From the NCBI RefSeq assembly GCF_000527155.1, contig NZ_AZUQ01000001.1, positions 3,299,889 through 3,363,888 of the forward strand: 64,000 nucleotides of DNA, given 5' to 3'. The translations under genes and the position numbers were made by a program. Source of the DNA: Haloglycomyces albus DSM 45210. Lineage in GTDB: Bacteria; Actinomycetota; Actinomycetes; Mycobacteriales; Micromonosporaceae. The notes under the pieces were generated by a model. The model had not been told where the DNA came from and searched no databases. It saw only the letters and a list, made by a program, of their open reading frames with translations. Within the stretch, counting starts at the first letter, position 1. Every line of letters starts with the position of its first letter. Shown here one piece after another: positions 13,669-63,733 of the stretch.

Positions 13669-13763
13669 ATCTCAAGGGTAAAACTTTTTCACCTGTCCCA
13701 TTGTGTGGGTCGTATTCGATGCCGTCTACAGCACTGAAACCGCATTCTCTAACGTCGGTAGGC

Positions 13764-14714
13764 ATGACTCTAGGATTGCCGTCGACCATGCCACGCGAAG
13801 ACGCCAAGATCGGCGACCTCCTGCGCCGGGACAAGCCGTGCATATCCTTTGAGATGTTTCCTCCCCGGACGGCCAAGGAGGAACGAATACTGTGGAAGAC
13901 CATCCGCGCGCTGGAGCCGTTGGCGCCCGAATGGGTATCGATCACCTACGGCGCCGGAGGCAAAACCAGGGAAAGAACCGTAGAAACGACCGATCGCATC
14001 GCGACGGAAACCACCCTGCTGCCCATGGCGCATTTTACCGCCGTCGATCATTCGGTGGCCGAACTGCGCAACCTCATCGGACACTTCGCCGACGTCGGCG
14101 TGCGCAACATTCTTGCTCTTCGTGGAGACCCGCCCGGCGACCCGCAAGGCGATTGGGTACCGCACCCCGACGGCCTCAATTACGCCATTGAACTCGTGGA
14201 ATTGATCAAGGAATCAGGAGACTTCTCCGTAGGGGTCGCCGCTTTCCCGGAGGGACACCCCCGTTCTCCCAGCTGGAATGCCGGAGTGCGTCATTTCGTG
14301 GACAAATGTCGCGCCGGAGCCGACTTCGCCGTCACACAGATTTTCTTCGATCCCACCGATTACCTTCGACTGCGCGATGACGCCGCCAAACTCGGATGCG
14401 ATACGCCCATCATCCCAGGGGTGATGCCGGTGACAAATATTCGACAGATTGAAAAATTTGCGGAACTCACAGGAATGGTGTTTCCGCCGGCCCTCGCCGA
14501 CCGCCTCCACGCGGTCAAGGACGATCGTGAGGCCATTCGCGATATCGGCGTCGAAGTCGCCTCCGACCTGTGCAATACGCTCCTGCGCGAAGGCGCGCCC
14601 GGGGTCCAGTTCGTTACTTTGAACCATTCACGCTCCACTCGGCGGGTGTGGGACCGCATTCGGCCCCTCACCGACGACTCGCCGATGGTTCCAGAAATCG
14701 CCGAGGTCCCGTAG
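13764..14714 (+). CDS. metF: 5,10-Methylenetetrahydrofolate reductase
   Basis: The 316-aa TIM-barrel flavoprotein has the active-site CISFEMFPPRTAKEE (catalytic Glu), WVSITYGAGG, NILALRGDPPGDPQG and FAVTQIFFDPTDYLRL motifs. It reduces methylene-THF to methyl-THF for methionine synthesis. The ATG at 13764 is my choice; an in-frame ATG at 13788 and a longer upstream frame are possible because no strong ribosome site stands out. It is divergent from the polyprenyl synthase and followed by the membrane gene at 14741. Confidence 0.94.
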   Translation: MTLGLPSTMPREDAKIGDLLRRDKPCISFEMFPPRTAKEERILWKTIRALEPLAPEWVSITYGAGGKTRERTVETTDRIATETTLLPMAHFTAVDHSVAELRNLIGHFADVGVRNILALRGDPPGDPQGDWVPHPDGLNYAIELVELIKESGDFSVGVAAFPEGHPRSPSWNAGVRHFVDKCRAGADFAVTQIFFDPTDYLRLRDDAAKLGCDTPIIPGVMPVTNIRQIEKFAELTGMVFPPALADRLHAVKDDREAIRDIGVEVASDLCNTLLREGAPGVQFVTLNHSRSTRRVWDRIRPLTDDSPMVPEIAEVP

Positions 14715-14740
14715 ACTCTTGTCTTGCACCGCGATCGAGG

Positions 14741-15415
14741 ATGCCGCAAGCTGAGATCATGCATGATGCGGCTTCCACTTCCGCTGCGCCGTCTGCTAAA
14801 ACAAAGGCTATGCGCACCCGGGTTCCCGCCGATTCCCTTTTGGGACGGGCCATACTGTCAAGTCAGCTACCGCCCTGGTTGGTATTGACCGCTGCCTTTC
14901 TCGCAGCAGTCGCCATACCGGGCGTCGCCCTACTCCCGACGTCATACTCCGCACTACTACTGCCGTTGCTGGGCTTGATCGTCCTCAGCGACCTTTCCTT
15001 CGGCCTGTTGGCAACACAGGTGGAAAATCTCAGTCGACGCCTACTCATGTTCGAACCCCTGGTATGTCGACTCGGGGAGGCCTCCTGGTTGGTGGCCTTC
15101 TGGCTGCTGGGAGCCCCAGGGTGGGTCCTCGCCCTCACCTGCGGATCATGCTGGCTGTACGTGCAGACGCGCAGCCGGGCCCGCCAACTCGGACTACGCC
15201 AGATGGGCATGACCACTCTCGCCGAAAGGAACGTCCGTACCACGACCGTCGCCGTCGCCTTCGCCGCGATCGTCGTAATCAACACCGCTGGAGGGGACGA
15301 ATACTCCTCGTGGGTGAAAGGCGTCGCCACCATCGCCGCCACCTCATGGATGCTACTGAGTTTGTTGGGCCTATTGCAGGTCACCGTCGTCGCAGCAGCG
15401 GCGCTGAAGGACTGA
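14741..15415 (+). CDS. Membrane protein resembling a degenerate CDP-alcohol phosphotransferase
   Basis: About 224 aa with four or five hydrophobic segments. The layout VLSDLSFGLLATQVENLSR, then CRLGEASWLVAF, then RARQLGLRQMGMTTLAERNVR recalls the order of landmarks in CDP-alcohol phosphotransferases, where a DR-GEA helix is followed by a P/ER loop. The catalytic Asp positions appear not to be kept: Cys stands where the last metal-binding Asp is expected. DUF5941-type proteins look similar. The start is uncertain (ATGs at 14741, 14759 and 14810). The assignment is inferred from pattern only; this could be an unrelated membrane protein. Confidence 0.6.
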   Translation: MPQAEIMHDAASTSAAPSAKTKAMRTRVPADSLLGRAILSSQLPPWLVLTAAFLAAVAIPGVALLPTSYSALLLPLLGLIVLSDLSFGLLATQVENLSRRLLMFEPLVCRLGEASWLVAFWLLGAPGWVLALTCGSCWLYVQTRSRARQLGLRQMGMTTLAERNVRTTTVAVAFAAIVVINTAGGDEYSSWVKGVATIAATSWMLLSLLGLLQVTVVAAAALKD

Positions 15416-15457: not shown

Positions 15458-16432
15458 ATGCGGATGGAAGTATGGGCTGACGTAATCAGTCCCTGGACGT
15501 TTATTCTCAAACGCCGACTCGACGACGCCCTGGGCAACCGCGACGACATCGAGGTGATCTGGCGTCCGGTAACGGTCGACCCGACCGCGCCCGAGCGAGC
15601 CGTGCCGTTGGTAGAGAACTTCCTGTCAACCCCAATGGACACGGCCGAGGTAGAGCCCTACACCACGATCATGGAGGGCATGCCGACCGCTCGGCAGCAG
15701 ACCTACCTGGCTCGGATCGCCGCCGACGCCGGAATCGGACCCCGGTTCGGAGCCCTGTGGCGGATCAACTCCGACGCCGCGCAACGACTCCTGCACCTTG
15801 CCTACACGGACGGCGGTCCCACGGTGCAAAACGACGTCATGGAAACACTGCTGCAGTCGTACCACGTCGCCGGTGACGACATCTCCGACCACGACGTACT
15901 CGCCTCCATCGCCCGCGAGGCCGGCTTCCCGGGCGGCGGTGCCCTGCTCGACGGCGACCTGACCATGCGCGATTACCACGAACAGAAACTGCGTGGTCAA
16001 GGTTTGGGAGTGGAGGCCTCTCCTACGATCGTGCACCACGACCACGTCCTCAAAGGAGCCGTTAACGAGGAAGACCTCACCGAATTCCTCAATGCGCTTC
16101 CGGAGCCTCCCGAGGTTCCGGAGGAACGCGAACGCCTGCGCCTGGCCGAGTCTCTCCTCAGGCAACGCAACCCACTCGGTGCGCTGACCCTGGTGGAGCC
16201 GGTGTTGGCCGAACACCCCGAGCAGAGTGACATTCTGGAAGTGGCCGCGCGAGCCTATTTTGGTTCGGCGCAAATGAACAAGGCCCGGGCGCTCGCCGAG
16301 CGGCTGGTCGACCAGAATCCGGCCGACTTCTACGCACACCACCTGCTGGGTCGAACCCTGGTCCGATTGGGCCGTAAACAGGAGGGCCAGCGGCATCTAC
16401 GTTTGGCCGGGGAAGACGACCTGAAGGATTAA
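15458..16432 (+). CDS. DsbA/FrnE-like thioredoxin-fold protein without CXXC, fused to TPR repeats
   Basis: The 324-aa protein begins MRMEVWADVISPWTFILKRR, which aligns with the FrnE/DsbA start (typically DxxCPWCYIGKxR), but both active-site cysteines are replaced (SPWT, residues 11-14). The whole protein contains no Cys. The insertion domain and the cis-Pro loop (EASPTIV) are kept. Residues about 225-320 form two TPR-like helical pairs (NPLGALTLVEPVLAEHPEQ, NKARALAERLVDQNPADF). It cannot catalyse thiol-disulfide exchange; a scaffold or chaperone role is inference. No signal peptide, so cytoplasmic. A strong hairpin follows the gene. Confidence 0.85.
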   Translation: MRMEVWADVISPWTFILKRRLDDALGNRDDIEVIWRPVTVDPTAPERAVPLVENFLSTPMDTAEVEPYTTIMEGMPTARQQTYLARIAADAGIGPRFGALWRINSDAAQRLLHLAYTDGGPTVQNDVMETLLQSYHVAGDDISDHDVLASIAREAGFPGGGALLDGDLTMRDYHEQKLRGQGLGVEASPTIVHHDHVLKGAVNEEDLTEFLNALPEPPEVPEERERLRLAESLLRQRNPLGALTLVEPVLAEHPEQSDILEVAARAYFGSAQMNKARALAERLVDQNPADFYAHHLLGRTLVRLGRKQEGQRHLRLAGEDDLKD

Positions 16433-16539: not shown

Positions 16540-17124
16540 ATGCACTTCGATCCGGCGGGAAATCGCCTACAGGGACCGATACGCCGATGGCTCTCCATCG
16601 GCGTCATCGTCGTCGCGCTTGTCCTGGTCGGATCGGCCACTCTGCTGGACCGCACGATCCCCGATCTCGCCAAGCCCACCGGCAACGACGTCCTCTTGGA
16701 CAACGGGGATACGGTCGCCCGAATTGAGCTCACCGAAGGATGGCGCATCGACAGGCATAGCAGCAGTCCACCCGAATCGGTGGCTCTGGAACACGGACAG
16801 GTCCGCTTCCATGCGCGCCTGGCGTCGTTTCCCACTGAGGCGACTCAATACCAAATCTGGACCGGCTTCGTGAAAACTCTGCGGGTCACCCTGCCGTCGG
16901 GCACACTCACCCCGCCGAAGGAAATCGTCTCCTCAAGCGGCGTCAAGGGACTGGCCGCTTCCTATCAAAGGGACGGCGAACACGGCGAGGTGTACGCGTT
17001 TCCCAACCAGAAGTCGAACGCAGCGGTGGAGATGATCCTGCTCGGGCCACAGGATACCGGTGATCGCAACTGGACCGCCGCGGTCGAGGTGGCCGAATCC
17101 ATGACCTTCGGGGAGACCGCATGA
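16540..17124 (+). CDS. Exported or membrane-anchored protein of unknown function
   Basis: The 194-aa product has an N-terminal hydrophobic helix (WLSIGVIVVALVLVGSATLL, residues about 17-36) after a short basic head, and a soluble extracytoplasmic domain of about 150 residues with no Cys and no recognised motif. I do not recognise the family. Its stop overlaps the start of the PrsW-like protease gene (ATGA at 17121), so the two are translationally coupled and may act together, for example as a protease and its partner; that link is inference. Confidence 0.75.
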   Translation: MHFDPAGNRLQGPIRRWLSIGVIVVALVLVGSATLLDRTIPDLAKPTGNDVLLDNGDTVARIELTEGWRIDRHSSSPPESVALEHGQVRFHARLASFPTEATQYQIWTGFVKTLRVTLPSGTLTPPKEIVSSSGVKGLAASYQRDGEHGEVYAFPNQKSNAAVEMILLGPQDTGDRNWTAAVEVAESMTFGETA

Positions 17125-18272
17125 CTTCCGAATCGGCTGTATCTGCCCGGTTGGCGAGCGCCGAACCGGATCACCGTTATCACTGGTCGGCACTGTTGGT
17201 AATCCTTATCGGCTTGGCGGCGGGGGCCTGGAGTCTGGGACGAAATTTCGCCGCCACCGTGTGGGTGTTCGCGGGTGCCGCCGCCTTGAACGTGGTCTTC
17301 TTGAGTATCAGCCTCGTGGTGGGGCTATGGCTGGCGCGCCGCCTCATGCGCCCGGTGGCGGCTCCGCCGTGGTCGGGGACCTGGATCGCCGTTCTCTGGG
17401 GCGGATTGGGAGCGATCGGAATCTCCCTGGCCGCCAACACGGCGTTGACGTCGTTTGTCACCAAAGCGCTGGGTTTTGATATCGCGTCCGAATGGGGTTC
17501 CGCCCTGGTGGCTCCCATCAATGAGGAGACCGCGAAGTTGCTCGGCGTGATACTTCTGGCCGCCGTATCCACCCGTTTGGTTCGGAGTCCTTCGGACGGT
17601 TTCGTATACGGAGCGCTCGTGGGGCTCGGGTTCCAGGTGGTCGAAAACCTCACCTACGGTTTGAACTCCATTCTGGGAGCGGGCGGTGTCGATCCGGCCG
17701 CCATGAGCACACTGGTGTTCGGGCTGCGTACAGGGACGGGGTTCTGGGGTTCTCATTGGGCCATGAGCGCGGTGGCGGGAGCCGGAATCGGCTATCTTGT
17801 CGCCAACCGGGGGCGTTCTCGGTCTCGGCGTGCCACCGTCGCCGTCTCATGCTGGCTTCTGGCCATGGCGATGCACTGGCAGTTCAATTCGCCGTTGCTG
17901 TCGGATCCGCAATACCTGTTTTATGTGAAAAGTACCCTCAATCTGGTGATCGCCCTGGTGGTTTTCCTTGTCGCACGGCGGGCGTTCCGCACGCACTGGA
18001 AATACGGGGCCGCCGACGAGGTCGATCGCGGTGCTCTGTTTCCCCAGGAAGCCACGGCGCTCTCCCGACGACGGGCGCGAGCACGTTATCTCAGGCGCTA
18101 TTCTCGGCCCGGCCGACAGCGGTACCTGCTGCATCTTCTGTTGCGGCGGCAACTGCGGCTGTTGGAAGATCGGGCGGCCGGTTGCCCGGGGGACGCGGCC
18201 GAGCCGCAGCGCGCCGATATCGCGGACATTCGGGCGACGATGGCCGTATCCGAGTCACACGAAAGCGGGTGA
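17121..18272 (+). CDS. PrsW-family intramembrane metalloprotease
   Basis: The 383-aa polytopic protein has the PrsW motifs: APINEETAKLLGVILLAA (paired Glu), VYGALVGLGFQVVENLTYG (EN motif), GSHWAMSAVAGAGIG and AMHWQFNS (metal-binding His). About eight hydrophobic segments are visible. The C-terminal 90 residues are soluble and very Arg-rich (RRRARARYLRRYSRPGRQR). Bacillus PrsW cleaves an anti-sigma factor; the substrate here is unknown. The start overlaps the upstream exported-protein gene by 4 bp. Confidence 0.88.
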   Translation: MTSESAVSARLASAEPDHRYHWSALLVILIGLAAGAWSLGRNFAATVWVFAGAAALNVVFLSISLVVGLWLARRLMRPVAAPPWSGTWIAVLWGGLGAIGISLAANTALTSFVTKALGFDIASEWGSALVAPINEETAKLLGVILLAAVSTRLVRSPSDGFVYGALVGLGFQVVENLTYGLNSILGAGGVDPAAMSTLVFGLRTGTGFWGSHWAMSAVAGAGIGYLVANRGRSRSRRATVAVSCWLLAMAMHWQFNSPLLSDPQYLFYVKSTLNLVIALVVFLVARRAFRTHWKYGAADEVDRGALFPQEATALSRRRARARYLRRYSRPGRQRYLLHLLLRRQLRLLEDRAAGCPGDAAEPQRADIADIRATMAVSESHESG

Positions 18273-23301: not shown

Positions 23302-24702
23302 TCATACGCGGCGTAGAAGAGCGAGGAACATGGCGTCCGTACCATGACGATGCGGCCAGAGCTGCCGATACGGCCCCGCGGTCGTATCGGGAATCTCCGA
23401 CACCAGCGCCGGCGACTCGACCACTTCCACGTGACCTTCGGCCACAACGGAGTCGACGATGTCCTTGGTCTCCGCCCACAACGGCGAGCAGGTCACATAG
23501 GCGACCACTCCCCCACGACGGGTAATGCGAACGGCGTTGTGGAGCAGTGCGCGTTGCAGCCTGCTCAACTCAGCGACGTCGACCGGCTGTTTGCGCCAAC
23601 GTGCCTCCGGGCGGCGACGCAGTGCCCCCAGCCCGGAACAGGGGGCGTCGACGAGCACGCGGTCGGCACCGTCCGCACGTCCCCACCGCCTTCCATCGGC
23701 TTCGACAACCTCCACCGGCATATCGGTCGTGTTCTCCCGCACCAGGTCCGCTCGGTGGGCTGCCGGCTCCACGGCCGTCACCCGTGCGGAGCGTTCCCGC
23801 GCCAGACTGCCGAGTAGAGCACTTTTACCTCCTGGACCGGCACACAGATCGACCCATGCCGCGTCACTTCCCTCGATCGCGGTGTCGGTAAGGGCCAGGG
23901 TCACCGCCTGGCTGCCCTCGTCCTGTACGCCCGCCGCCTTCGCCGCGACCGCCGGGACCCGACCGGGGTCCCCTGCCGAAAGGTACACCGCATAGGGAGA
24001 CCAGCGTCCGACCTCACCACCGGTTTGGGAGGCCAGATCAGACCGTGTTATCCGCCCTGGCCGGGCGGTGAGATGCACCTGCGGAGCGCTATTGTTCTCC
24101 GCCAGAGCGGCCTCCACCTCTGACTCGGGCAGGAGCGACTCGAATTCGGCCACAATCCATTCCGGATGGGATTGATCGAATGCCAGCCGACCTCGCGTCG
24201 TCGTCGGGTCAAGGCCGGAGCTTGCCCTTGGTGTGTCCATCAGCTCCGCACGCCACTGTTCAAACGAACGGTCCGCCACCTTACGGAGTACGGCATTGGC
24301 CAGACCGGACACCTTGGGCGCCACCGCTCCCTTGACGAGCCCGACGGTTGTGGACACCGCCGCGTACGCGTCGATGCGGGTCCACAGGATCTGATAGGCA
24401 CCGAGGCGGAGAGCGTCCACCAGGTCGGGACGCAGATCGGTCAGGTCCCGCCCGGAGGCGGCGGTCAAAACGGCGTCGAGCGTGCCTTGAGCGCGCAGAG
24501 TGCCGTAGGCGAGTTCGGTGGCGAGCCGGGAATCCCGCTCCGACAGGTTCGCCGCCGCCAGCGCTTTGGGTAGCACCAGGTTGGCATAGGCGTCATCGGC
24601 GCTCACCGCTCGTAGAGTGTCGAAGGCGACGCGCCGGGGATTGTTACGCCCACCTCGACGGGTCTGAGTGGGTCGACCGTTCGCTTTACTCAAACCGACC
24701 AT
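23302..24702 (-). CDS. rsmB: 16S rRNA (cytosine-5) methyltransferase RsmB-like
   Basis: About 466 aa with an N-terminal NusB-like RNA-binding domain (RRVAFDTLRAVSADDAYAN) and a Rossmann methyltransferase domain: QDEGSQAVTLAL, DLCAGPGGKSALLGSL (SAM site), VLVDAPCSGLGALRRRPEARW (PC motif) and YVTCSPL (catalytic TC motif). It methylates a cytosine in 16S rRNA. The ATG at 24702 has CAGGA five nt upstream and overlaps the 3' end of fmt by 17 bp, a usual order (def-fmt-rsmB). Confidence 0.94.
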   Translation of the reverse strand: MVGLSKANGRPTQTRRGGRNNPRRVAFDTLRAVSADDAYANLVLPKALAAANLSERDSRLATELAYGTLRAQGTLDAVLTAASGRDLTDLRPDLVDALRLGAYQILWTRIDAYAAVSTTVGLVKGAVAPKVSGLANAVLRKVADRSFEQWRAELMDTPRASSGLDPTTTRGRLAFDQSHPEWIVAEFESLLPESEVEAALAENNSAPQVHLTARPGRITRSDLASQTGGEVGRWSPYAVYLSAGDPGRVPAVAAKAAGVQDEGSQAVTLALTDTAIEGSDAAWVDLCAGPGGKSALLGSLARERSARVTAVEPAAHRADLVRENTTDMPVEVVEADGRRWGRADGADRVLVDAPCSGLGALRRRPEARWRKQPVDVAELSRLQRALLHNAVRITRRGGVVAYVTCSPLWAETKDIVDSVVAEGHVEVVESPALVSEIPDTTAGPYRQLWPHRHGTDAMFLALLRRV

Positions 24703-25609
24703 CGCTTTCCTGAATTCCACGCGCCCATGCGGTCGCGTCCATGGCTTTCTTACCGGCCGGCTGTACCGTGCCCAGACGCACCGGATCGGTCGCGGTACCG
24801 ACGAACACGGACTTCTTGGTCGTTTCCAAGCGGCCCGGTTCCAACCGAGGGCCGTCCTTGTCGACCGTCACCGGACCAAGACGGAAGCGTTCGCCCTGCC
24901 ATTCGGTCCACGCACCCGGCGTCGGCGTCACGGCGCGCACCCGGCGATCCACGGCGAAGGCCGGTTCGCTCCACCGCACACGGGCGTCGGCGGAGGTGAT
25001 CTTCGGAGCCAGACTCACTCCGTCGCTCGACTGCGGACGAGCGTGGATATCGTCCTCGGCCAGAGCGTTGACCACGTCGACCGCCAGGCGCGCTCCCGAG
25101 ACGGACAGGCGTTCCAGCACGTCACCGGAGGTGTCCCGAGAGGAGATGGAGTCGGTGACCATGCCGAAGACCGGCCCGGTGTCCATCCCGGCCTCCAGCT
25201 GGAAAACGCTCGCACCGGTCATATCGTCACCGGAGAGAACGGCGTGTTGCACCGGGGCGGCTCCGCGCCAGGCGGGCAACAGCGAGAAATGCAGGTTGAT
25301 CCAACCCAGACGAGGAATGTCCAGAGCTTCGCGCGGTACGAGTTTCCCATAGGCCACCACGACCACAAGGTCAACGTCGAGCTCACGTAGACGTTGGTGA
25401 GCCTCTTCCGTCCGCAGAGTGGTCGGCGTCCACACGTCCAGACCGCGATTCTCGGCCCACTGCGCCACCTGGGAACGGGCGACCTTGCGTCCACGTCCGC
25501 GACGTGCGTCCGGCTGTGTGAGTACCCCGACCAGTTCGTGCGGCGATTCCGCGAGCGCTTCCAGCGTCGGAACGGCTACCTGTGGTGTCCCGGCAAAAAG
25601 TATCCTCAT
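24686..25609 (-). CDS. fmt: Methionyl-tRNA formyltransferase
   Basis: The 307-aa protein begins MRILFAGTPQVAVPTLEAL and has KLVPREALDIPRLGWINLHFSLLPAWRGAAPVQHA, which contains the SLLP and formyl-binding motifs, and GAWTEWQGERFRL in the C-terminal domain. It formylates initiator Met-tRNA. Its ATG overlaps the def stop (ATGA), so the formylation and deformylation genes are coupled. Confidence 0.96.
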   Translation of the reverse strand: MRILFAGTPQVAVPTLEALAESPHELVGVLTQPDARRGRGRKVARSQVAQWAENRGLDVWTPTTLRTEEAHQRLRELDVDLVVVVAYGKLVPREALDIPRLGWINLHFSLLPAWRGAAPVQHAVLSGDDMTGASVFQLEAGMDTGPVFGMVTDSISSRDTSGDVLERLSVSGARLAVDVVNALAEDDIHARPQSSDGVSLAPKITSADARVRWSEPAFAVDRRVRAVTPTPGAWTEWQGERFRLGPVTVDKDGPRLEPGRLETTKKSVFVGTATDPVRLGTVQPAGKKAMDATAWARGIQESDGRFE

Positions 25610-53752: not shown

Positions 53753-54952
53753 TTACCGCTGTCGACCGAGTCCTGTCGCGTCCGTAGCCGGACCCGAGTC
53801 TAAGGCGGTCGTCGTCCGACGCCCATAGGCCGTCATCGCGGCCAACGTCGTGGTCACGGCCAGAACCAAGAGACTCAGCACCATGATCGGCAGATCGGGT
53901 ATCAACAACCCCGCGGCTCCGATGGCGACGAGAACGCCCATGGCGATGAAACGCGAGCGCGCCAACCGCCCGAATCGCGAGCGCAGGAACAGTACGTTGC
54001 CGACCAGGTAGATCAAGGGCCCGGCCACTGTCACCAGGACGATTGCCGCAGTGAGATGGTCGTGGGAGAGCCGCAGTTCCGTGGAGACGGCGACGAGTAT
54101 CGCTCCGAGAACCATGAAGGCGTGGGCGTAGGCGTAAGCGTCGCGCAACGCCGCGGTCGATCCCGCGCCACCTTGCGTGTCGGGGCCGGCGAGAGCGAAG
54201 TAGTTCCACCACAGCACGAACAGTCCGGCGAAACCGACGACCACGCTCAGGGCGAGTGGCAGGTCGAATATCCCGGTGCTGGCGATGACGCCGCCCATGA
54301 GGAGGATCGACTCGCCCAGCGCGATGATGAAGACGAGTCGGTTGCGTTCGGCGAGGTGTTCGGCATCGGTGTCCCAGCTGTCGAGTGGGGCGCTGCCGAT
54401 CCCCGGGACACGGAATTCGACTTTGGGTGCCACATAGTCCACGAGTACCGCGATCGCCCAGACAAGCAGGCGCGCCTCGGGCTCCAGGAAGGCCCCCACG
54501 ATCCAGAAGACTCCCGCGGCGAGGGTCCAGAGCAGGAGCATCTTATAGTTGGCGGCGAGCTGCTGCCCTCGGTAGGCGACCATCATGAAGACGGGTCGAA
54601 GAACGCCCATGAACAGGTAGGCGCTGACGAACAGCCACGCTCCGTCTCCGAACGCTTGGGGAATCGCGCTCGCCATTCCCAGCGCCGACAGCATCAGTAC
54701 CCCGGTCAGGAGTTGTACTGCCGTCCGGGAGGGATCGAGCCAGTTCATGGCCCAGGCGGTGTAGTTCCATCCCCACCAGACGGCGGCGAAGATGATGACC
54801 GTCTGCGCCGCGCCCATCCAGGATAGGTGTTCGAGCAGCAGGTGGGACAGCTGAATGATGGAGAAGACGTAGACCAGGTCGAAGAAGAGTTCGATCGGAC
54901 CTACCGTGGAGCGGTTACGGCTGGTGCGCGACAGTGTGGGTGTCGAACTCAT
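53753..54952 (-). CDS. Low-temperature-requirement A (LtrA) family membrane protein
   Basis: The 399-aa protein has the LtrA signature VGPIELFFDLVYVFSIIQLSH and about ten to twelve hydrophobic segments, with the conserved HLAERNRLVFIIALGESILLMG motif in the middle. LtrA was named from a Listeria low-temperature mutant; its biochemical function is unknown. The ATG at 54952 follows GAGAAGG. It appears monocistronic. Confidence 0.9.
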   Translation of the reverse strand: MSSTPTLSRTSRNRSTVGPIELFFDLVYVFSIIQLSHLLLEHLSWMGAAQTVIIFAAVWWGWNYTAWAMNWLDPSRTAVQLLTGVLMLSALGMASAIPQAFGDGAWLFVSAYLFMGVLRPVFMMVAYRGQQLAANYKMLLLWTLAAGVFWIVGAFLEPEARLLVWAIAVLVDYVAPKVEFRVPGIGSAPLDSWDTDAEHLAERNRLVFIIALGESILLMGGVIASTGIFDLPLALSVVVGFAGLFVLWWNYFALAGPDTQGGAGSTAALRDAYAYAHAFMVLGAILVAVSTELRLSHDHLTAAIVLVTVAGPLIYLVGNVLFLRSRFGRLARSRFIAMGVLVAIGAAGLLIPDLPIMVLSLLVLAVTTTLAAMTAYGRRTTTALDSGPATDATGLGRQR

Positions 54953-55142
54953 CGGGTACCTTCTCTCCATTATCGATCGTGTTCCACGCAGCCGAGACTA
55001 GCAGTGACGGTGGATATGTGCTGGGCAATCCACTCAATCGGTCGACCCGGTCTTCGCTTGGTTACGAACGAGGTGGGGGCTCATAACGGTGGTGTGGTGG
55101 CAAAGCCGGTTCGGCCGTACCGAATCGGCTTTACTGCGCAGG

Positions 55143-62741: not shown

Positions 62742-63047
62742 TTACGCTCCCAGCTGCCGCAGCACTGCCGTCACGGTGGCGGCGATGAGGATGACGAGCG
62801 CGAAGGGCGCCCGGAACCATGCGGCTATGCCACCTGCGATGACGCCGATGGGAAGAGCCCAACCGGCGAAGTCTCCGTCCTTGAACACCACTGACAGCAC
62901 CACCAGCGCCGCGATGACGACGGTGGCGGCGACCTTCAGGAGGTTCTCGGTGCGCTCGTTCATCGTCAATCGATCGCGCAGAAGGGACCCGGAGGCTTTC
63001 AGGGCGAGGGTTCCGGCCGCGAATACCGCGATGGCAAGGATGATCAT
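62742..63047 (-). CDS. azlD: AzlD-type branched-chain amino-acid exporter small subunit
   Basis: The 101-aa protein has four hydrophobic segments (ILAIAVFAAGTLALKASGSL, VAATVVIAALVVLSVVF, WALPIGVIAGGIAAWF, FALVILIAATVTAVL) as in AzlD/BrnE. It works with AzlC to export branched-chain amino acids. Its start overlaps the azlC stop by 4 bp. Confidence 0.88.
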   Translation of the reverse strand: MIILAIAVFAAGTLALKASGSLLRDRLTMNERTENLLKVAATVVIAALVVLSVVFKDGDFAGWALPIGVIAGGIAAWFRAPFALVILIAATVTAVLRQLGA

Positions 63048-63733
63048 GAACGTTGCGCCTCTTTCGAACTCGTCGTATCGGCCCGGTTGAGAACCGGCAC
63101 CAACGCGACACCGGACAATGCGAGCAGCACCGGAATACCGTCCGGTAGGAACGGAGTGGCGGCCAGAGCGACACTCACTCCCGCCACAACGGCGAGCAAG
63201 GTCACCTTGTTCTTAAGATTGGGAAGTATCAACGCGAGCAGCGCCGCCGGCATGGCCGCATCCAACCCCAGTACATCGGGATCGGTGACCAGCCGTCCCC
63301 CGAACGCGCCCATGGCCGTGCCTATTACCCAGGAAAAATAGAATGAGATTCCGAGGGTCCAGAAACCGGCCCGGGCACGTTGTGGGTCTTTGGTATTCAG
63401 CGCATAAGCGGTTGACTCGTCAATGAGGAGATGAGTCCCCAGCAGGGTCCGCCAGAGCCCGCGCTTCCAGAATAGGTGTCCAATCGCGAGTCCATAGGGG
63501 AAATGACGGGTGTTGAGAATCAATCCGGTCACGACGGCGACGACGAGACTCCCGCTCGTGGCGATCGAGACCATGGCGAACTGACTGGCTCCAGCGAAGA
63601 CGGTGAGACTCATGAAGACCGCCTCAAACCAGGTGAAGCCGCTTGTGGTGGCGATGGCTCCAAAGGAGACACCAATGATTCCCGCGCCCAAGACGAGTGG
63701 AATGATCTGCTGAAAGATGGAGCGGTTGAACAC
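63044..63733 (-). CDS. azlC: AzlC-type branched-chain amino-acid exporter large subunit
   Basis: The 229-aa polytopic protein has the AzlC pattern: PLVLGAGIIGVSFGAIATTSG, LTVFAGASQFAMVSI, LILNTRHFPYGLAIG, THLLIDESTAYAL and a C-terminal hydrophobic tail (PVLLALSGVALVPVLNRA). It forms the BrnF-like half of a branched-chain amino-acid exporter with AzlD, which follows directly. No Lrp regulator gene is adjacent. Confidence 0.9.
   Translation of the reverse strand: MFNRSIFQQIIPLVLGAGIIGVSFGAIATTSGFTWFEAVFMSLTVFAGASQFAMVSIATSGSLVVAVVTGLILNTRHFPYGLAIGHLFWKRGLWRTLLGTHLLIDESTAYALNTKDPQRARAGFWTLGISFYFSWVIGTAMGAFGGRLVTDPDVLGLDAAMPAALLALILPNLKNKVTLLAVVAGVSVALAATPFLPDGIPVLLALSGVALVPVLNRADTTSSKEAQRS

Follow-up and report, generated by a model that had tools for sequence, protein, structure and literature searches.

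The window, as we call the whole 64,000-nucleotide stretch of Haloglycomyces albus DNA analysed here, carries downstream of metF a gene for a cysteine-free protein that combines a DsbA/FrnE-type N-terminal domain with C-terminal tetratricopeptide repeats (TPRs). The gene, its neighbours and the landmarks of its product are listed in Table 1. The hydrophobic ORF that separates it from metF matched no Pfam or NCBIfam family.

Table 1. Features of the metF-linked locus (positions in the window; residue numbers refer to the window protein).
Feature	Position	Strand	Basis
metF (MTHFR), upstream neighbour, also in Glycomyces	13701..14714	+	PF02219, synteny
Predicted hydrophobic protein ORF; true start probably closer to 14760; 43 bases separate its end from the gene	14570..15415	+	ORF list, synteny
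Pseudo-FrnE-TPR gene	15458..16432	+	ATG start, intact frame, 324 aa, zero Cys
DsbA/FrnE-fold domain, residues 1-213	15458..16096	+	PF01323, AlphaFold2 model, match to FrnE 5cnw
SPWT at the CxxC site, residues 11-14	15488..15499	+	Family alignment
Low-confidence loop, residues 53-69; second conserved Cys of most relatives at about 69	15614..15664	+	pLDDT <50, column comparison
Q109 (His in 66/66 Cys-bearing members and 8/8 canonical FrnE)	15782..15784	+	Alignment
H136 (Phe in 66/66 Cys-bearing members)	15863..15865	+	Alignment
S188-P189-T190, cis-Pro loop position	16019..16027	+	Alignment
Six helices forming three TPR-like hairpins, residues 222-316	16121..16405	+	PF14559/PF13428, AlphaFold2 model
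Downstream neighbour, no Pfam family	16540..17124	+	Pfam search
PrsW-type intramembrane protease gene	17121..18272	+	PF13367

A profile search had been proposed in a first-pass annotation of this DNA, and it placed both the DSBA and the TPR families above their cut-offs. PF01323 (DSBA) covered residues 4-211 of the window protein (E = 1e-19; 71.5 bits, cut-off 25.6), and TPR families spanned residues 224-311, with TPR_19 matching residues 233-298 at 34.7 bits (cut-off 25). No signal peptide was apparent at the N-terminus, MRMEVWADV. At residues 11-14, where canonical FrnE has CPWC, the protein has SPWT, and it contains no Cys elsewhere; the catalytic CxxC dithiol of FrnE/DsbA oxidoreductases is therefore absent, and the DsbA fold itself is recognised both by profile and by structure. 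These results bear out the annotation as to fold, replaced motif and lack of Cys. Its further statement that the landmarks of the fold are kept held for the cis-Pro position, P189 (Pro, assigned by position, in 72/72 family rows and 8/8 canonical FrnE rows), but not for H109 and F136, which are replaced by Q and H. W6, D8, W13, W35, R36, D41 and G156 are also retained.

Cysteine makes up 1.02% of the residues across the 43 long ORFs of the window, a frequency at which a 324-residue protein would have none with P = 0.036. Pure chance was weighed on this basis, and the absence of Cys alone barely exceeds it. What does go beyond chance is that exactly the family-conserved positions were lost. Four of the 43 long ORFs are Cys-free, the other three lying at 53753-54970, 24686-25609 and 63044-63733, all on the minus strand.

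The AlphaFold2 model of the window protein, obtained with a 43-sequence alignment, had a mean pLDDT of 89.1 and a pTM of 0.86 and was poor only at the C-terminal end and in residues 53-69; the alignment was made up mostly of Cys-bearing relatives, and the modelled fold is partly inherited from them. From the N-terminus, the DsbA part comprised a β-strand (2-7), an α-helix (12-25), a β-strand (32-37), a helical insert (77-163), an α-helix (168-182), β-structure (190-199) and a last α-helix (204-212). In the TPR part (residues 221-320), pLDDT ranged from 89 to 98 per ten-residue block. The repeats announced in the first-pass annotation were thus present, but their number was not the two units proposed: the model showed six helices arranged as three hairpins, a count supported jointly with a second model, that of the Cys-bearing protein L036 from Microtetraspora (L036:5001-5975; pLDDT 92.3).

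A predicted structure without a thioredoxin fold had been named beforehand as an observation that would speak against the annotation; a thioredoxin/DsbA fold was predicted, with Deinococcus radiodurans FrnE (5cnw) as the best structural match (Z = 23.9, 198 residues, rmsd 2.8), and SCO1869 (3gl5) was matched at Z = 22.8. FrnE (5cnw/5co3/5xwh) and SCO1869, the best matches in both sequence and structure, share with the window protein the DsbA fold, the helical insert and the cis-Pro. Canonical FrnE differs in having CPWC, a Val-Pro loop, H109 and no TPRs, where the window protein has SPWT, SPTI, Q109 and TPRs. HCCA isomerase and kappa-class GST structures matched the model at Z = 18.0-19.2, and YjbH (6gho/6ghb) at Z = 17.7-17.9. 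Escherichia coli YbbN (3QOU) was absent from the best 50 rows of both structure lists, which proves nothing either way.

When named genomes of bacteria and archaea were scanned, relatives were found at no fewer than 79 loci, and most of those listed were DsbA-TPR fusions; Streptomyces, Nonomuraea, Nocardiopsis, Streptosporangium, Microtetraspora, Pseudonocardia, Actinomadura, Frankia and others were among the genera of the matches listed. Within the taxonomic family of the window, 34 of the 354 genomes, in 8 of 44 genera, gave a match at E = 1e-22 when TPR-only forms are counted, and in a sample of the class, 13 of 394 genomes, including that of the window, matched the L036 protein at E = 1e-40. 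The FrnE-TPR family is therefore patchy in actinobacteria. No NCBIfam model scored above cut-off for L036 or for the window protein, and our searches of open-licence papers found no description of a FrnE/DsbA-TPR fusion family; the available portions of a Leptospirillum paper dealing with FrnE, DsbA and tetratricopeptide proteins contained no such fusion. The actinobacterial family is apparently undescribed. Stand-alone TPR proteins of about 125 aa, which share some 45% identity with the TPR segment of the fusions, are widespread in actinomycetes as a separate group (L009-L012, L014-L019, L093-L096, L099-L102, L104-L110 and a few more).

The active site was surveyed in 72 distinct full-length members. 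This set leaves out the duplicates L003, L085 and L082 (of L041, L007 and L058, respectively), L115 (which carries the protein of L074), L086 and L120 (broken frame), L091 (contig end), canonical FrnE and generic TPR-only rows, and the class-survey loci L142-L153 are not part of its counts. In L086 and L120 the frame is broken between the DsbA and TPR parts, which may be real or a sequencing error, and in Nonomuraea zeae (L090:5001-6116) a low-complexity, Thr-rich repeat is inserted in the DsbA domain.

Such a survey of the CPWC position in actinobacterial homologues had been suggested in the annotation. Cys11 is kept in 66 of the 72 members, a full CxxC occurs in two and no Cys at all in six. 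Both CPWC members (L087 and L119) lack Cys at the C69 column, and the other 64 Cys11 rows, with Ala (59), Met (3), Thr (1) or Ser (1) at position 14, have C69 in 59 cases and lack it in five, so that C14 and C69 are mutually exclusive. In this Cys-bearing majority, the pattern suggests a redox role centred on Cys11, in which the Cys near position 69 would replace the missing resolving Cys. The six Cys-free rows read SPWT (window), SPWA (L006), GGWT (L007), SPET (L074), APET (L112) and SPET (L116). His109 and Phe136 were both found in 66/66 Cys-bearing rows and in 0/6 Cys-free rows, and His109 also in 8/8 canonical FrnE rows. The residue preceding the cis-Pro is Ser in 64/64 monothiol-site rows and Val in 8/8 canonical FrnE. 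Since five of the six Cys-free rows form one clade, these joint losses count as two events, not six.

Directly upstream of Cys-bearing members lies a divergent gene, whose product gave a TetR_N match in the four cases tested. When ten such proteins were used as tblastn queries against the 1.5 kb upstream of the 72 rows, a TetR gene was detected in 58: 57 of 61 two-Cys rows, one of five one-Cys rows and none of the six Cys-free rows. Tabulated against the cysteine pair, the raw counts (57/4/1/10) would indicate a strong correlation, but the independent events are few: the phylogeny-aware test gave about 3:0 among 5-6 independent pairs (sign test, p = 0.25).

A quick tree of 80 rows, rooted on eight canonical FrnE proteins, in which the window protein and L006, among others, were flagged as having long end branches, placed the fusion proteins in one clade apart from canonical FrnE (support 100). 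The CPWC pair was the first to branch within this clade (81), and the CxxA-type group received a support of 98. Total loss of Cys appeared twice, once in the five-row clade that holds the window protein and Glycomyces (99) and once in L007, the sister of the one-Cys L005 (99). With its FrnE domain, its three TPR hairpins and its place in the fusion clade, the window protein belongs to the family; it has neither Cys11, nor C69 or C14, nor His109, nor the divergent TetR neighbour of typical members. It is a family member by descent, not by mechanism.

In the Glycomyces-type genus, 3 of the 21 listed genomes encode a shortened, Cys-free DsbA domain, and the other 18 match only from residue 184-202 or thereabouts, that is, over the last DsbA helix and the TPRs (sequences read for 15 of the 18); the genus was assigned to Glycomyces through a protein identical to that of the named record L074. 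A tree built from the TPRs, which offer few columns, grouped 15 Glycomyces TPR-only proteins with the Cys-free fusions (97) and set 31 generic stand-alone TPR proteins apart (96). The order metF, hydrophobic ORF, gene was found in the window and at all 19 Glycomyces-type loci examined (L008, L074, L112, L115, L116 and L121-L134, L115 carrying the protein of L074). At L008, the TPR-only ORF begins about 40 bases past the upstream ORF, as does the full gene in the window. Since the metF-linked locus of Glycomyces species encodes a reduced DsbA domain devoid of Cys in some cases and nothing but the TPRs in others, the redox centre was lost first, the fold is dispensable in these relatives and it is the TPRs that have been retained. 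The simplest account is that the DsbA domain was deleted in frame once the redox centre had been lost, and the shortening or deletion of this domain while the TPRs are kept points to the TPRs as the presumptive working part. We consider it probable that the window protein works through its TPRs as an adaptor or in the manner of a holdase, and that the FrnE domain at its N-terminus is a relic without catalytic function.

This picture is complicated by the constraint on the DsbA domain of the window protein itself. For the long forms of Glycomyces, the ratio of dN in the DsbA part to dN in the TPR part was 2.81-2.99 in three of three pairs, as against 0.42-2.15 in 16 pairs of Cys-bearing relatives (the three Glycomyces pairs share species, as do some of the 16). 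Some constraint nevertheless remains on the Glycomyces DsbA part, as its dN (0.14-0.17) is below its dS (0.32-0.39). On a fixed tree, the DsbA/TPR ratio of end branches was 1.80 for the window protein, against a Cys-bearing median of 1.51, and was equalled or exceeded in 23 of 64 rows; the five remaining Cys-free rows gave ratios of 3.4-9.8. The overall DsbA/TPR distance ratio of the window protein (1.33) was near the lowest. The window protein retains 34 of the 42 conserved DsbA columns and the full insert, the other five Cys-free rows 25-28 columns. Given these ratios and counts, the relatives are relaxed and the window protein is not: relaxed selection in the DsbA domain of its own lineage was tested for and none was found. 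This lack of relaxation is the main result against calling the domain a mere relic.

A Cys-free FrnE fold might then still bind a client through the old substrate groove, jointly with the TPRs, as in the YjbH-Spx pair. The full-length domain with its conserved columns, the absence of domain-specific acceleration, the kept residues W6 to P189 listed above, the good model and the structural match to YjbH (Z = 17.9) would leave room for such a binding role. As the corresponding locus of the sister genus encodes a truncated domain or none, and H109 and F136 are lost, we regard it as unlikely, though worth keeping in view; the reuse of the FrnE fold for protein binding put forward in the first-pass annotation is thus unproven. 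According to passages of PMC7889195, YjbH has a FrnE/DsbA-like fold and serves as the adaptor by which Spx is targeted to ClpXP, and Listeria YjbH has a CXXC. It shares with the window protein this fold and a C-terminal extension, the likeness in our data being one of fold only. The C-terminal part of YjbH is presumably not a TPR domain.

The genome, 3.5 Mb in one contig, also encodes a canonical FrnE (L002), whose motif is CPWC and whose loop reads VPFF; it thus has another FrnE-type protein besides the Cys-free one. An Rv2466c-like protein of family PF22234 (L141:1003-1632, contig near 3423866) has a CxxA-type DsbA fold with the site CPFA. Rv2466c-type mycothiol-dependent reductases are likewise actinobacterial proteins of DsbA fold; they differ from the window protein in having no TPRs, in keeping the first Cys and in belonging to PF22234. 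Moreover, a DSBA-family protein with the site SPYS was found (L139:1420-2103, contig near 353872).

In kappa-class GST and HCCA isomerase, which share the DsbA fold, a conserved Ser takes the place of Cys. By analogy, Ser11 of SPWT could activate mycothiol for transfer. We take the SPxS/T pattern to resemble the Ser site of this group, as presumably does SPYS of L139, and both the separate SPYS protein and the structural matches at Z = 18.0-19.2 would fit such catalysis. However, a conserved catalytic Ser was not found in the family, position 11 being Ala in L112, Gly in L007 and Cys in the rest (the Cys-bearing rows). The nearest relatives vary (SPWT, SPWA, SPET, SPET, APET, with GGWT in the independent case), the tree derives the window protein from Cys11 forms, H109 is lost, and kappa GST and HCCA isomerase lack TPRs. 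Ser-type catalysis was rejected as the main reading, Ser not being kept in the nearest relatives, and we hold it to be quite improbable.

The long end branch of the window protein in both domains (0.744 in DsbA and 0.409 in TPR, against Cys-bearing medians of 0.110 and 0.072) could also be taken as that of a gene heading to inactivation, with neither domain functional. Its 324-codon frame is intact, 24 of the 30 conserved TPR columns are kept, the position beside metF is conserved, and orthologues or TPR-only forms occur in 21 Glycomyces-type genomes, all of which makes decay very improbable. Finally, that the Glycomyces arrangement is ancestral and a TPR protein gained the DsbA domain in the window lineage is hardly credible, even if stand-alone TPR proteins are widespread (31 were used in the TPR tree) and change counts on an unrooted tree are blind to gain versus loss, since the fusions span many actinobacterial families as one clade with a canonical FrnE outgroup and the Glycomyces TPR-only proteins retain the final DsbA helix and fall within the clade of the fusions.

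The first-pass annotation had held that a cytoplasmic pseudo-oxidoreductase with TPRs was not a described functional class. This did not stand, as CnoX/YbbN proteins combine a thioredoxin fold and TPRs with an altered CxxC and the genome holds its own Cys-free YbbN-like protein. According to passages of PMC8129009 and PMC6282202, E. coli CnoX has a thioredoxin fold, a C-terminal TPR domain and an SXXC motif, is not an oxidoreductase and forms mixed disulfides through another Cys, and Caulobacter CnoX has CXXC. The likeness to the window protein thus lies in the N-terminal thioredoxin-type fold, the C-terminal TPRs, the altered CxxC of some CnoX members and the cytoplasmic location. The N-terminal domains nevertheless differ, being a classical thioredoxin domain in CnoX and a DsbA/FrnE domain with helical insert in the window protein. 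So do the TPR parts: TPR_20 is present in the YbbN-like protein of the genome but not in the window protein. A further mark of the CnoX/YbbN class is holdase activity with transfer to GroEL/DnaK. Membership of CnoX/YbbN was rejected, as no PF00085 or PF14561 match was obtained in the window protein up to E = 1, and CnoX/YbbN was retained as a functional analogue. Judging by domain type, its fusion would be separate from CnoX, and the protein would not be a CnoX by descent. The YbbN-like protein of the genome (L135:859-1767, contig near 2206817; 302 aa, Thioredoxin and TPR_20) has WADQSPES in place of the CxxC motif and contains no Cys; Cys-free proteins of thioredoxin-plus-TPR type therefore already exist in this genome. 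It is the variant that is new and not the class: a Cys-free pseudo-FrnE-TPR protein, derived within an actinobacterial family that as yet has no name.

Returning to the TPR adaptor or holdase-like reading, the sequences trace the family back to a fusion of FrnE to three TPR hairpins, the two CPWC members coming first in the outgroup-rooted tree. Most members changed to a CxxA-type site with a second Cys near position 69. In the Glycomyces lineage, where no TetR neighbour was found, both Cys, His109 and Phe136 were lost, after which, in Glycomyces, the DsbA domain shortened and, in most species, underwent the in-frame deletion that spared its final helix and the TPRs. The alignments make plain the loss of both Cys, His109 and Phe136, the conservation of the TPRs and the existence of relatives that lack the DsbA domain. 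The present function would be cytoplasmic protein binding by the TPR groove, with no thiol-disulfide exchange, and the full-length DsbA domain of the window protein may serve at most as a structural element or a secondary binding surface. More tentatively, and with rather less confidence than in this reading, we propose an undescribed, chaperedoxin-like FrnE-TPR family of actinomycetes, separate from CnoX and TetR-adjacent, in which the resolving Cys may have moved some 58 residues downstream; in the lineage of the window protein and its Glycomyces relatives, such a protein would have lost the regulator, the Cys pair and the catalytic His, and then the whole fold, to become a pure TPR binder.

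The proteins form a natural series for a redox enzyme joined to a binding module, from CPWC through CxxA with a distant Cys, no Cys and a shortened domain to the TPRs alone, and some of its steps are seen at a single locus in one genus and the genus next to it. Such a series offers a way to ask on which of its two halves the work of a chaperedoxin-like protein depends. The Cys-bearing majority, with its conserved distant second Cys and the TetR gene beside it, seems the more promising target.
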